Part shown: positions 52,500 through 57,871 of the stretch, piece after piece
Numbering within the stretch: position 1 is the first letter of the stretch
Layout of the letters: every line of letters begins with the position of its first letter
DNA from: Oligoflexales bacterium
Lineage (GTDB): Bacteria; Bdellovibrionota_B; Oligoflexia; Oligoflexales; RGVZ01
Assembly: GCA_947494335.1 (NCBI GenBank)
Contig: CANLUT010000003.1
Span: forward strand, 186,001 to 250,000
DNA: 64,000 bases
Reading direction: 5' to 3'
Notes under the pieces: generated by a model
What the model saw: only the letters and a program-made list of their open reading frames with translations
Database searches by the model: none
Told to the model about the DNA's origin: nothing
Position numbers and translations under genes: made by a program

Positions 52500-52530
52500 A
52501 AAAAAGCCGACCGTCAGGGTCGGCTTTTTT
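52500..52530. terminator. Bidirectional terminator
   Basis: 13-bp stem AAAAAAGCCGACC / GGTCGGCTTTTTT with a 5-base loop. It serves the small lipoprotein on the plus strand and fabH, whose stop begins at 52530, on the minus strand. Confidence 0.92.
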
Positions 52531-53528
52531 CATTGTTTCTGTAGAAGCAGTGATCCCCAGGTGAGGCCGGCTCCCACGACAGCGATTACGATATAGTCAC
52601 CTGGCTTGTAGCGGTCCCAATTTTGAGATAGCACCGATGGTGCGCCGCATGCCCCCTGATTACCTCGGTCAACGACGTTATATAGGTGTTTCTCTGGGGG
52701 AACTCCCATCTTTTCCATCGCAGATGTCAGCATTCTGTAATTTGCCTGATGTCCAATGAACCACTGGGCGTCAGCCGGCGTTAATTTGTTTCGGGCTAGG
52801 ATATCTTGAGCAGCTGCGATGGTCTTGGTGATGGCAAACTTCTGAACTGCGGCTCCGTTTTGATGAAAAAACTTTCCATCGGGTAAATGAATATGTTCCC
52901 ACCCACTTGGAGCCGACTCTACAAGACTATCGACAACCTTAAGCGAGTCGGGACGGTGTTTTGAGCTTACTGCTGCGGTAATCGAAGAATCGCCAAAAAG
53001 AATCGAATTCCTGCGATCGCTGTAGTCAACACGAGTCGTGTACCTTTCTGCGCAGAAGATAGCGCCCTCATTGGTCAGTCCCGCTAGCATGAGGCCCCGC
53101 ATGACGTGGCATTGAACTACAAAAGTACTACAAGCAGAATTGACATCAAAGCCACGAACGCGTTCCATACCTAAATGGGCTGAAATAGCACAACCGCTAG
53201 CTGGAATATCATCGTCAGGAACGGAGGTGCCACCAATGACTGTGTCGATATCCTCTGACACAATATGCGTACGATTCATGGCCATCTTCCAGGATTTTTC
53301 GCTCATACTGGCAATAGATTCTATTGCTCCTTGATCTTTCAATTGAGCACGGTTAATTCTTCCGTATCGTAACTCGGAAATCTGCTGCGGCGTCAGAACA
53401 GAGCGTCTTTCAACAATACCAACCCGCTCTTCGATCCAATCAGCTGCAGAGCCAATATCCAGTTTGTCGAAAAATTTGTTGTCGAGTACGTTTTCGGGGA
53501 AGTAATGCCCCATGCTGTAAATAAACAT
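52530..53528 (-). CDS. Beta-ketoacyl-ACP synthase III
   Basis: 332 residues from the ATG at 53528 (AAGG 8 bases upstream); a longer reading overlapping fabG is rejected. It is a KAS III/FabH-type condensing enzyme with the complete triad Cys133 (NSACSTF), His260 (WFIGHQANYRM) and Asn290 (VVDRGNQGACGAPSVL). FabH makes the first condensation of acetyl-CoA with malonyl-ACP; close paralogues serve special acyl chains, so fabH itself is not certain. It follows fabG by 16 bases. Confidence 0.9.
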   Translation of the reverse strand: MFIYSMGHYFPENVLDNKFFDKLDIGSAADWIEERVGIVERRSVLTPQQISELRYGRINRAQLKDQGAIESIASMSEKSWKMAMNRTHIVSEDIDTVIGGTSVPDDDIPASGCAISAHLGMERVRGFDVNSACSTFVVQCHVMRGLMLAGLTNEGAIFCAERYTTRVDYSDRRNSILFGDSSITAAVSSKHRPDSLKVVDSLVESAPSGWEHIHLPDGKFFHQNGAAVQKFAITKTIAAAQDILARNKLTPADAQWFIGHQANYRMLTSAMEKMGVPPEKHLYNVVDRGNQGACGAPSVLSQNWDRYKPGDYIVIAVVGAGLTWGSLLLQKQ

Positions 53529-53544: not shown

Positions 53545-54291
53545 TCAGTTTGTAAACATGCCGCCGTTGACGTGAATGGTGCTTCCGGTGATGTACTTTG
53601 CACTATCCCCAGCCAAGAAAGCGACAGCGGCGGCAATGTCTTCCGGTGTGCCAAGACGCTTTAGAGGAATCTTGGCTAAAATGGACTCTTTCGCCTGATC
53701 CGGGAGAGCATCAGTCATGTCCGTTTGAATAAAGCCTGGCGCCACACAGTTACACAGAATTCCAAATTGAGCTAAATCCTGAGCTATGCTTTTGGTGAAT
53801 GCTGTGATGGCTCCCTTTGTTGCGGAATACATCGACTGTCCAGCATTACCCGTGTAGCCAACCACCGAGGCAATATTAATGATCCGGCCAGTCTTTGCGC
53901 GGATCATTCCCTTTGTAGCAAACTTACTGAGGAGAAAGACAGGCTTTAGATTGGTGCTTAGTAGAGTCTCGAAGTCTTCTGGTTTGGCGAATGGAAGAAG
54001 CTGGTCGATCGAAACACCTGCGTTGTTGACAAGAACCTGGATGGGGCCCATTTCTGCAGTAACGACCTTGATAAGCTCCTGACATGCTGCGGGATCGGAC
54101 AAGTCTGCTTTGAATGGCACTGCACCGGTGATTTTCTCACAGATGGCTCGCGCCTTATCTTCTGCGCCACGATAGTGCACAGCGACTTTGTATCCGGCCT
54201 GACCTAGCGCAATGGCGCAGGCTGCTCCGATTCCTCTGCTCGCCCCCGTCACCAGTGCGACTTTAGCTACGGAGCCACTCGGCGAACTCAT
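53545..54291 (-). CDS. fabG: 3-oxoacyl-ACP reductase
   Basis: 248-residue short-chain dehydrogenase, starting at ATG 54291 (GGAGGG). NADPH site TGASRGIG at 15-22, NNAG at 89-92, and the catalytic Ser142, Tyr155 and Lys159 (INIASVVG...YSATKGA). FabG reduces 3-oxoacyl-ACP in fatty acid synthesis; the neighbour KAS III supports this role. Operon with the KAS III gene. Confidence 0.92.
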   Translation of the reverse strand: MSSPSGSVAKVALVTGASRGIGAACAIALGQAGYKVAVHYRGAEDKARAICEKITGAVPFKADLSDPAACQELIKVVTAEMGPIQVLVNNAGVSIDQLLPFAKPEDFETLLSTNLKPVFLLSKFATKGMIRAKTGRIINIASVVGYTGNAGQSMYSATKGAITAFTKSIAQDLAQFGILCNCVAPGFIQTDMTDALPDQAKESILAKIPLKRLGTPEDIAAAVAFLAGDSAKYITGSTIHVNGGMFTN

Positions 54292-54387
54292 AGACCCTCC
54301 GATCTTTTGGATTAGACATGGGAGGATATCACTTGGGTAAACAGCCGACAATCAAGTTTAATGGATCGTTGTCGCTGGGATGGAGTC

Positions 54388-56802
54388 TCAAGAAGCCGTT
54401 TTCACCGAAGTGGAATTGGCGGTTTTTTGTGCATCCTTGACCTTAAACGCCCATTGGACGAGCAAGGCGGTCGTGCGCCAGATGCCAAGGATGTCATTAC
54501 TAGCATCTGGATGAAATCCTTCGTGAGCTGCGCGGTTTCGGAAGTCCTGGAATATGTGTAGTTCACGGCAATACTCAGCCAATTCGATATCGTCTTTTGC
54601 CCCTGTGACTACAAGGCTAGCCAAGCCGTGCTTACATTGTTGCCGACCAAAAACGAAAAAGAAAAGTCCAAACGCCTTTAGGCCATCCAGAGTGAAACGT
54701 TTTCCAGGTTCAAATTGACAAAGTGCCCTTAGCATTTTTCTTAGTTTGAATTTTGAGAAAAAGGGGATCTCTTTGACGACAGGAAGAGCCGCAATAAAGG
54801 ATTCGAAGTCATCCATATTGCGAAGGATTGGTCGAGCATAACCGATGACGTCCAGCTTACGTTGGATAGTTCCTCTTTGCAGAATCTGACTAACGTGATC
54901 TTCAAAAAATTCACGGTACAGTAGCTCCATGGCCTTATATTGCATATCGATAAGCGGAGATAAGTCTATTTCGTCGGCGTGTTTGCTGGAGGTGACAGTC
55001 TTGTTAAAGAACAGGGCTGTACGAAGAGCGCGTTTGACTTCGCTAGAGAGATGATTGTAATGCGGAATCATGCCTGCCAATTCGAAATCAAGGTTTTCTC
55101 CGTTAGTGCCGTTTGTATCTTCGTTTCTGAGAGTCACAATAGTTGGCCTATTGCCTGGCAACAATAGCGCAGATAGTTCGTCTTTTAATTGAAACAATGG
55201 GTGATCGGTGTTTTGAGGTAATTCGAAATCATGGACCACACTGCGAAGCTCTTTTTGGAGTGCCCTGAGATCTTTGCTGCTGAGTATATTGACGATCTCT
55301 TGTTTGACGACGTTTGACGCGTTCGGCCTGGTAAGCATGTTTATCAATTCGAGGAGGCTGCGAGGTGTATTAATTGCGCCTAATGCGCGAGCAACTGAGC
55401 GGATCTCCGTCTCGTCGTTGCTACGAATATGATCTAGCAATTTAAGCACTGCGTCGTCTCGTCCTTTCAGCTTCGACATCGACATAATATGGGCAAGGGT
55501 CATCAGGCCGCGGCCTTTTCTCGTGGCTGCTGTGAGGCTATTAATGTCCATCGTCTCGGGAGAAAGCCAGGATTTGGCGAGCAGTGACCACGAACCATTG
55601 CCGGAAATGGTTCCATCATTGGTTTTTGAAAGCACTGAAACAAAATCCATAAAGGCATGCTCGATAATTGCCTTTGACTCGGGCTCATCTGAGAAATCTT
55701 TGGTGTTAGAAATTTTGTCAGATGACATGTTGGACTTGCCAGCGACTGCATTTTCGCGAGCAGAATGGAGTTTTGCGAACACATTGTTATCGTAAGATTT
55801 TGAAAAGATGCTACCGCTTTCGTTGGCTGGTCCCGGAAATTTTCCAAAAGGCTGGTGGCTAATCAAGCAGTCCAACCAAGAGTCGCTCGAAGAGATTATG
55901 GGACCTTCGCCGGAAATAGCTGCGATGGGCAGACCATCAAGGAGTCCTGGATTACTCGGCGCCAGTCTTAGTAACTTATTCAGAATGGTTAGTTTCATTT
56001 CGCCACGAGACCAGATGGCTGGTAGCTTCAGTGGCTGGTCGAGTTTATCCACATCCTTGGTTAATAGTTTTTCTAACTTTGAGATTTCGTTGTTACGCCG
56101 ATCGTGGTGCTCGATAATTGCCGACGTGGCTTCAATCCAAATTGCGCGAGGACCAGATGCGATCCATTTTTTTAACTCATCTTCCGCGTGTCGGCATAGC
56201 CAGCAGACGGCTGGTATCAGGCTTTTATCCTCTGGAAATGAAGCGGACCTGTTGATGTCCAGTATTTTCCAGGCGAGTTTGTTTAAACGTGAATCAAATA
56301 AATCAAACTGTAAGCATCTTTCAAATAAAAGAGCATGGAATGCGGAGGAGAGTTCTTCCCAGTCTTTGGCGTTCAAAGTTGCCCTTACCAGTTCAAATCC
56401 ATGAGATAGTGTCGCGATATCGAGAATCGTAAATCTTATACGTTGTGGAAGACCCGGACTGGCGGCAATGGGGATCAGACGATGCCAAAGAATTCTGTCT
56501 GTCGCTGTCGCCCAAGTCCGAATAGCGGTCGCAGCGATATTCTGCTCCCACCCTAAAAGATGATCCATGACCCATAACTCAAAACCAGCGCGGTAGGTTG
56601 GATAACAAATTTCAAATGCGGAGATGATTTCATCCTGACTCAAAGGGAAATGGATCAGACCTTTAAGAAGGTCGTAATCAATCGTCAGCGAATTCTGCCG
56701 CCATTTATGGATAATCTCGATGCGCTCTTTCGAAGATGCTGCAGAGATGAATTCCTCCAGTTCAGAGCTATTGATGATCCTTGGGCTGCTTTTGGAAACC
56801 AT
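54388..56802 (-). CDS. Large HEAT-like protein with C-terminal HEPN motif
   Basis: 804 residues, mostly helical. The first ~650 are leucine-rich with HEAT-type segments, best seen at ~450-525 (DDAVLKLLDHIRSNDETEIRSVARALGAI; NTPRSLLELINMLTRPN). The C-terminus has the HEPN pattern: helix, then QDFRNRAAHEGF with Arg755 and His760 (Rx4H) and a following helix ILGIWRTTALLVQW. HEPN domains with Rx4-6H are often metal-independent RNases, but some are inactive binding modules. No signal peptide. ATG after AAGGTTTTTTTAA. No toxin, antitoxin or defence gene is adjacent. Role unknown. Confidence 0.6.
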   Translation of the reverse strand: MVSKSSPRIINSSELEEFISAASSKERIEIIHKWRQNSLTIDYDLLKGLIHFPLSQDEIISAFEICYPTYRAGFELWVMDHLLGWEQNIAATAIRTWATATDRILWHRLIPIAASPGLPQRIRFTILDIATLSHGFELVRATLNAKDWEELSSAFHALLFERCLQFDLFDSRLNKLAWKILDINRSASFPEDKSLIPAVCWLCRHAEDELKKWIASGPRAIWIEATSAIIEHHDRRNNEISKLEKLLTKDVDKLDQPLKLPAIWSRGEMKLTILNKLLRLAPSNPGLLDGLPIAAISGEGPIISSSDSWLDCLISHQPFGKFPGPANESGSIFSKSYDNNVFAKLHSARENAVAGKSNMSSDKISNTKDFSDEPESKAIIEHAFMDFVSVLSKTNDGTISGNGSWSLLAKSWLSPETMDINSLTAATRKGRGLMTLAHIMSMSKLKGRDDAVLKLLDHIRSNDETEIRSVARALGAINTPRSLLELINMLTRPNASNVVKQEIVNILSSKDLRALQKELRSVVHDFELPQNTDHPLFQLKDELSALLLPGNRPTIVTLRNEDTNGTNGENLDFELAGMIPHYNHLSSEVKRALRTALFFNKTVTSSKHADEIDLSPLIDMQYKAMELLYREFFEDHVSQILQRGTIQRKLDVIGYARPILRNMDDFESFIAALPVVKEIPFFSKFKLRKMLRALCQFEPGKRFTLDGLKAFGLFFFVFGRQQCKHGLASLVVTGAKDDIELAEYCRELHIFQDFRNRAAHEGFHPDASNDILGIWRTTALLVQWAFKVKDAQKTANSTSVKTAS

Positions 56803-56841: not shown

Positions 56842-56873
56842 AACCCTATGCTAAAATGAAGTGACATAGGGTT
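56842..56873. repeat. 9-bp perfect inverted repeat between divergent genes
   Basis: AACCCTATG and CATAGGGTT, separated by 14 bases (CTAAAATGAAGTGA), lie 39 bases upstream of the HEAT-HEPN gene start and 26 bases upstream of the secreted protein start. A TAAAAT -10-like sequence is in the spacer on the plus strand. Position and symmetry suit a dimeric regulator binding site. Confidence 0.5.
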
Positions 56874-56899
56874 ATCGGCTGGTGGAAAGGTCATCAAAG

Positions 56900-57871
56900 G
56901 TGAGTTTCTTGATAAAGTTAAAAAAAAATAGAATTTTATTGATGGTCTTAGGTGGATACGCCTTCGTTGTTTCTAGCGTAAACGCGCGAGAACTTCCTTT
57001 TCCGGCGCCAAGTCACGCGGGGATGCCAGTTCAGCTTAAAGTTTCTGGCCTGGTCGTTGATAAAGGGGACGTGTTCGTGTTTCCTGATTCACCATCAGTG
57101 ATGATTAAGATCCCTTTTGATACGAGAAATAAGTCGACAACATCGCCTTTTGGGGGGTTAGCACTTCAAAGTCGTGTCCAGATAAGTGGAAGCGCTAATC
57201 CGGGACGATGGCGAGGATTTTATTCTATGGGTGAACAGGTTGTTGTCTGGGATTCGACCATCCTTCAGCTGCTGGTTTTACAAAAGAAAGACTTCTCTGT
57301 CGTGCGGAGTGTGACTGTTCCTCTTGATGTCGTAAAGCCCGCACTGGATCGAGGTGGAGAGGCAAGTCATCTAGAGGTTAAACGTCTAAGGAATAAGCTT
57401 CGCGGTTCATTTAAGAGTTTAAAGGGAGATCGTTTTTCTGGACTGGCTGAGATTCCCTCGGATTGGGAAGGTTCTAAAGGTCGACGGTTTCTTATTTCAA
57501 CCCGGCTGAGCGGCTTTCCTTTATTACTGATGGCCTGTGATCCTGATGATGCGGCCAATTGTTATATCGAACGACAATGTCAGCTTCACGGTGCCTCCCC
57601 GCAATTGAATGCTCATTCAGCCGGTATCGGCATCAACGCGGAAAAACGGGCGATTTTGATCGCAAATTCTTTTAGTAATACGATTGAAGTTTTCAAATAC
57701 GATCGTTGTGGGAGTGTGCAGAAGACAAGCTTTTTAAAGATTCCGAACAAGTTGCCCAAAGTTGAGACCATTTATCTGGATGCATTATCAAGATTATGGA
57801 TCGGAACTGGTGTTATCGACACCCAGGTGGAGTCTAATATCTTCTTTTGGGAAAAAGGGACCTGGATGTAG
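56900..57871 (+). CDS. Secreted protein of unknown function
   Basis: 323 residues from GTG 56900, which follows AAAGG by nine bases and gives a compact signal peptide ending SSVNA; GTG at 56882 is the longer option. The mature part has paired strands in a propeller-like rhythm (SGLVVDKGDVFVFPDSPSVMIKIPF; LDALSRLWIGTGVID) and six or so Trp/Phe. A Cys pair group CDPDDAANCYIERQC sits near 225. Family unknown. Convergent with the Omp85 gene. Confidence 0.65.
   Translation: MSFLIKLKKNRILLMVLGGYAFVVSSVNARELPFPAPSHAGMPVQLKVSGLVVDKGDVFVFPDSPSVMIKIPFDTRNKSTTSPFGGLALQSRVQISGSANPGRWRGFYSMGEQVVVWDSTILQLLVLQKKDFSVVRSVTVPLDVVKPALDRGGEASHLEVKRLRNKLRGSFKSLKGDRFSGLAEIPSDWEGSKGRRFLISTRLSGFPLLLMACDPDDAANCYIERQCQLHGASPQLNAHSAGIGINAEKRAILIANSFSNTIEVFKYDRCGSVQKTSFLKIPNKLPKVETIYLDALSRLWIGTGVIDTQVESNIFFWEKGTWM

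Follow-up and report, generated by a model that had tools for sequence, protein, structure and literature searches.

A 2013 survey of the HEPN superfamily found its prokaryotic members to be tied mostly to conflict systems, and the core RNA-processing HEPN enzymes that have been described, Las1 and the Ire1-type KEN domains, are those of eukaryotes (PMC3710099). The fold consists of two alpha-hairpins, which give four core helices, and an insert separates helices 2 and 3; helix 3 ends in the motif, Rx4-6H, whose arginine is followed by a polar residue (N, D or H), many families have an acidic residue in helix 2, typically as Ex3[KR], and inactive families tend to lose the active-site set (PMC3710099). 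The described systems considered here are RnlA and LsoA, HEPN toxins of the RNase LS family of E. coli; Csm6, the HEPN ribonucleases of type III CRISPR systems; PrrC and RloC, whose large N-terminal part controls a HEPN nuclease at the C-terminus of the protein (PMC3710099); and AbiA of Lactococcus, in which a C-terminal HEPN domain with an RN...H motif follows a helical domain (PMC11077055). The AbiA HEPN domain, with an RNx5H motif, showed no detectable RNase activity on the RNAs tested, acts in dimerisation and compares with known HEPN proteins at DALI scores of 8-9 (PMC11077055).

The HEAT-HEPN gene HH-A, which lies in a window of 64,000 nucleotides from an Oligoflexales bacterium (the whole stretch of DNA that was analysed), both resembles and departs from these systems. 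RnlA and LsoA are the best structural matches of its C-terminal domain, and the candidate active-site residues have the same spacing, K623-x2-E626-x3-R630 plus R755-x4-H760 in HH-A against R255-x2-E258-x3-K262 plus R318-x4-H323 in RnlA, a correspondence drawn from helix positions and residue spacing. The insert between helices 2 and 3 is longer in HH-A, however, with 129 residues from the glutamate to the arginine against 60 in RnlA, a HEAT solenoid stands where RnlA has its own N-terminal part and, unlike RnlA and LsoA, HH-A has no RnlB-like antitoxin gene and is not mobile. Sequence similarity to the RnlA/LsoA family is not significant, and the neighbouring genes encode FabG and an exported protein. 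Csm6 matches HH-A in its HEPN fold but has a CARF domain where HH-A has its solenoid, and no CRISPR context was noticed beside HH-A. Control of the nuclease by an N-terminal part of the chain is proposed for HH-A as for PrrC and RloC; the latter are defence genes with an ABC NTPase, whereas HH-A carries a HEAT solenoid and is a chromosomal core gene. The arrangement of helical and HEPN domains recalls AbiA, which is plasmid-encoded and has a reverse-transcriptase domain that HH-A lacks. We found no paper on HEPN proteins in Silvanigrella or on a HEAT-HEPN family like HH-A.

Predicted structure of HH-A

The gene and its parts are as follows.

54388..56802, minus strand: HH-A, HEAT-HEPN gene, 804 amino acids (open reading frame and translation)
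55138..56775, minus strand: HEAT/ARM-type alpha-solenoid, residues ~10-555, fast evolving (model helices and VIA-align matches)
54433..55074, minus strand: predicted HEPN domain, residues ~577-790 (domain model and structural matches)
54913..54927, minus strand: E626-x3-R630 in helix 2, second HEPN motif, Ex3[KR] (E626 and R630 invariant in 34 of 34 orthologues)
54523..54540, minus strand: R755-N-R-A-A-H760, catalytic-type Rx4H motif where helix 3 ends (R755, N756, R757, A758 and H760 unchanged in all 34 orthologues)

The first-pass annotation had described an 804-residue protein with HEAT-type repeats and a C-terminal Rx4H motif. Its reading frame is indeed present on the minus strand, opening with an ATG that has AAGG 9 nt ahead of it, and both R755 and H760 had been numbered correctly, RNRAAH being encoded at 54540-54523. 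The sequence signal of the HEAT repeats is weak (Pfam HEAT_2 over residues 446-502, E=0.0065, sub-threshold), and this part of the description draws its support from the model and from the HEAT_2 matches of a paralogue. The N-terminal part is almost all helical in the full-length model, and the best VIA-align matches of residues 10-555 are alphaRep, the PP2A A subunit, importins and AP2, as would be expected of tandem two-helix repeats forming a solenoid of the HEAT/ARM type. The single match of HH-A in PADLOC is a weak one to a 44-residue HEAT stretch (E 0.001).

The AlphaFold model of the C-terminal domain (pLDDT 90.6, pTM 0.87) places helix 1 at residues 587-605, helix 2 at 615-643, helix 3 at 738-761 and helix 4 at 765-803, with an enlarged insert (645-737) holding shorter helices between helices 2 and 3, and thus contains the four core helices of a HEPN domain. 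R755-N756-x3-H760 provides Rx4-6H with its polar residue within helix 738-761, and E626-x3-R630 provides Ex3[KR] within helix 615-643. VIA-align puts RnlA first, with Z 8.4 and an rmsd of 3.6 across 135 residues, and LsoA second, with Z 8.1 across 145 residues, the third match following about 2 Z units lower at Z 6.2; Csm6 appears at ranks 6, 12 and 20 (Z 5.7, 5.3 and 4.6), so that HEPN RNases occupy ranks 1, 2, 6, 12 and 20 of the 940 chains compared. For a helical bundle a Z of ~8 counts as modest; it is the level usual for the HEPN superfamily, since the AbiA HEPN domain scores in the same range. On the strength of the model, whose helix order is of HEPN type and which resembles HEPN RNases most closely, the earlier assignment of the domain to HEPN appears sound.

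Against the reading as a HEPN RNase stands the lack of any sequence-level link to a known HEPN family. Searches of Pfam, NCBIfam, PADLOC and PDB sequences found no family for the C-terminal domain, single members giving sub-threshold Pfam matches to DUF4145 (0.05) and Abi_2 (0.26), and hhalign of the domain against RnlA is not significant (E=0.47). Foldseek alone likewise returned nothing significant against PDB and BFVD (nothing at E<=0.001), HEPN RNases coming first only by VIA-align.

Invariant residues and a diverged paralogue

Composition alone produces R[NDH]x3H in 16% of shuffled copies of HH-A, so RNRAAH on its own is not significant; it gains significance because it is retained throughout the family. 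The conservation of Arg755 and His760, which had been set beforehand as a check, extends to all orthologues compared: R755, N756, R757, A758 and H760 do not vary in any of the 34, nor do K623, E626 and R630 of helix 2, and further invariant basic residues are K686, R688, K689, R702, K709 and R720.

A diverged HEAT-HEPN paralogue of 918 aa, HH-B, is encoded elsewhere in the same genome (L137:9082-11835; contig C1:1265081-1267834). Its C-terminal domain is homologous to that of HH-A (hhalign E 1.2e-18, prob 99), it carries four clear HEAT_2 stretches (Pfam E 3.6e-22), and its motif is RNRAAHR, in which R, N and H are invariant in 13 of 13 sequences. In helix 2 an aspartate replaces the glutamate of HH-A and the basic residue four positions on is lost. 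A strong match to HH-B was found in 15 of 58 genomes of the phylum, a narrower distribution than that of HH-A, and its neighbours differ from those of HH-A; in three Silvanigrellales genomes the HH-B orthologue follows a recA gene.

These observations bear on two objections to a catalytic HEPN domain. The C-terminal domain could be an unrelated helical bundle, for which a Z of 8 is attainable, with RNRAAH a coincidence of the kind seen in the shuffles. The recurrence of HEPN RNases among the structural matches, the placement of the motif residues in helices 2 and 3 exactly where HEPN domains have them, and an invariance that spans two paralogous families make this very improbable, and HH-A is very likely a member of the HEPN superfamily. 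Alternatively, the domain could be a non-catalytic HEPN that binds RNA or only dimerises, its invariant R, N and H serving binding or folding. The AbiA domain, inactive on the RNAs tested in spite of its motif, offers a precedent (PMC11077055), the six further basic residues would suit RNA binding, and HH-B is without the Arg/Lys of Ex3[KR]. The full set (E, R, the polar residue after R, and H) is nevertheless invariant in all HH-A orthologues, whereas inactive families tend to lose it (PMC3710099), and we consider a purely non-catalytic domain rather unlikely. Judged from its residues, HH-A is likely to act catalytically on RNA: every active-site residue is invariant, and yet the AbiA motif is one that came without detectable RNase activity.

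Distribution, neighbourhood and inheritance

Profile searches for HH-A covered the phylum of the window. A strong match (E <= 1.8e-74) to a profile of the C-terminal 212 residues, taken to mark an orthologue, was present in 43 of the 52 genomes searched within the phylum (Oligoflexia, comprising Oligoflexales and Silvanigrellales), and of 56 related genomes searched, 45 encode the protein. Scanning a collection of 84,980 species with two exact peptide patterns from conserved peptides, by which distant relatives would be missed, gave 36 loci; where their titles are informative they name Oligoflexales, Silvanigrellales and close kin, and a few are labelled broadly or doubtfully, for instance as 'Betaproteobacteria'. 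HH-A is missing from several relatives, most of which have smaller genomes, and is therefore not essential throughout the group. Neither HEAT-HEPN family was seen in seven genomes of the same order (G012, G015, G020, G021, G022, G028 and G032), most of them small, and this absence suggests lineage-specific loss. Length also varies: at two loci of the sister genus (L042 and L069, genomes G006 and G009) the orthologue is ~692-694 aa, with the solenoid partly lost and the HEPN domain kept, while at the Silvanigrellales loci L046-L050, L053-L056, L067 and L068 it is mostly ~1000 aa.

The two halves of the protein evolve at different rates. Identity to the nearest relative is 82% over residues 577-788 and 42% over residues 1-560, against 84-85% for FabG/FabH; by this sequence measure the C-terminal domain is about as conserved as FabG/FabH and the N-terminal part far less so. 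Where measurable, dN/dS over HH-A is 0.01-0.13, with 0.08-0.13 in the N-terminal part and 0.01-0.06 in the C-terminal domain, figures that come from few measurable pairs with synonymous sites near saturation. The low values in both parts make both look as if they are under purifying selection.

Around HH-A lie the following features.

53545..54294, minus strand: fabG-like reductase gene, downstream syntenic neighbour (order conserved in many Oligoflexales; named from sequence)
52530..53528, minus strand: fabH-like (ketoacyl-ACP synthase III) gene, downstream syntenic neighbour (named from sequence)
56882..57871, plus strand: divergent gene, its 329-aa product apparently exported and possibly propeller-like (syntenic in 18 loci)
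56842-56850 / 56865-56873, no strand: perfect inverted repeat with 9-bp arms, AACCCTATG-14-CATAGGGTT, in the gap that separates the divergent genes

The usual order in Oligoflexales is TamB-like, TamA-like, divergent exported protein, HH-A, fabG, fabH, and the core neighbours of HH-A comprise fabG-fabH, TamA/TamB and Tol. In Silvanigrellales the orthologue sits between aldehyde dehydrogenase-like and flagellin-like genes, a neighbourhood that differs from that of Oligoflexales yet is itself conserved; at the Silvanigrellales loci listed above, the flagellin-like gene is directly downstream and a QueE-like gene two genes further. No family could be assigned to the divergent exported protein (56882-57871), for which the only match was to the Lactonase propeller at E=0.16. 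This protein is fast evolving (37% to a genus-mate) and is paired with HH-A in most Oligoflexales; its gene is absent at the two sister-genus loci. We considered fabG/fabH and the exported protein as functional partners and rejected them: HH-A occurs without these genes in some families and has other neighbours in Silvanigrellales, so the linkage is not functional evidence.

The inverted repeat, which the first-pass annotation had joined to HH-A as a possible system, does exist but is not conserved. The window holds 21 perfect inverted repeats of 9-bp size and no equivalent was found upstream of 29 orthologues, on which grounds it was rejected as a system part; a promoter scan gave sites no more numerous than in shuffles. 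The observation that no antitoxin-like gene adjoins HH-A stands, and no conserved small partner or antitoxin-like gene was found beside it in the window or in relatives, where an adjacent nucleotidyltransferase antitoxin gene of the HEPN-MNT type was likewise not found.

Searches of plasmids, phages and viral contigs found no relatives of HH-A, and no recognisable defence genes adjoin it in the window. In a tree of the C-terminal domain the genus of the window, the sister genus and families f6, f8 and f12 each come out as a group; most of the deep branches are unresolved, and one supported long-branch join (f11 with f2) crosses families. Thus, from its core synteny, the family-recovering tree, its place off plasmids, phages and viral contigs, and purifying selection, we conclude that HH-A is not mobile, and the mobile or defence-island location and horizontal spread of HEPN defence effectors were not found for it.

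The main rival for the role of HH-A is a self-regulated defence or abortive-infection effector, in which a diverging solenoid would sense a phage trigger and release the HEPN RNase as in PrrC/RloC. Known HEPN effectors with an N-terminal regulator share this logic of architecture (PMC3710099), an effector domain that evolves slowly beside an N-terminal part that evolves fast is what such a system would have, and patchy loss is in keeping with it. The core gene order, a tree that recovers most host families, the failure to find relatives on plasmids, phages or viral contigs, the purifying selection on the N-terminal part overall, the lack of adjoining defence genes and a PADLOC match confined to one short HEAT stretch all speak against it, and we judge such an effector unlikely. 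A chromosomal RNA-processing or stress RNase fits HH-A better than a toxin or defence role. The toxin or defence slant of the first-pass annotation accordingly loses ground for want of any mobile or defence context, while the other option it offered, self-control or a chromosomal role in RNA processing or stress, agrees with the setting of a core gene that is inherited vertically.

Proposed role in Oligoflexia

We lean towards HH-A as a chromosomally fixed HEPN endoribonuclease, a solenoid-controlled factor of RNA processing, decay or stress in Oligoflexia. Its ordinary chromosomal inheritance through most of the class makes a built-in RNA-processing or stress factor probable rather than a mobile toxin. 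What the analysis shows is the reading frame, its conservation, the predicted fold with its structural matches and the non-mobile setting; that the protein cuts RNA and dimerises, and what the solenoid and the whole protein do in the cell, is what we infer. The C-terminal four-helix domain most likely dimerises and cuts RNA independently of metal: H760 would help the 2'-OH to attack the phosphodiester, the phosphate would be positioned by R755, N756 and the helix-2 residues E626/R630 (with K623), and the products would carry 2',3'-cyclic phosphate and 5'-OH ends. For the N-terminal HEAT solenoid the most likely task is to bind a partner or an RNA-protein target and to keep the nuclease selective, or off until needed; under this proposal no separate antitoxin would be required, because the solenoid itself restrains the nuclease. 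The vertically inherited role would be in RNA processing, RNA decay or the stress response.

The C-terminal domain of HH-A very likely represents a HEPN family that is described in none of the libraries searched and is chromosomally fixed in most of a bacterial class; such a family would offer a way into HEPN RNases with housekeeping roles in bacteria. More tentatively, HH-A may be a vertically inherited housekeeping HEPN RNase which, with HEAT repeats as its scaffold, matures or degrades one particular cellular RNA. It would then be a bacterial functional counterpart of eukaryotic Las1 or the Ire1 RNase domain rather than a toxin or defence effector.
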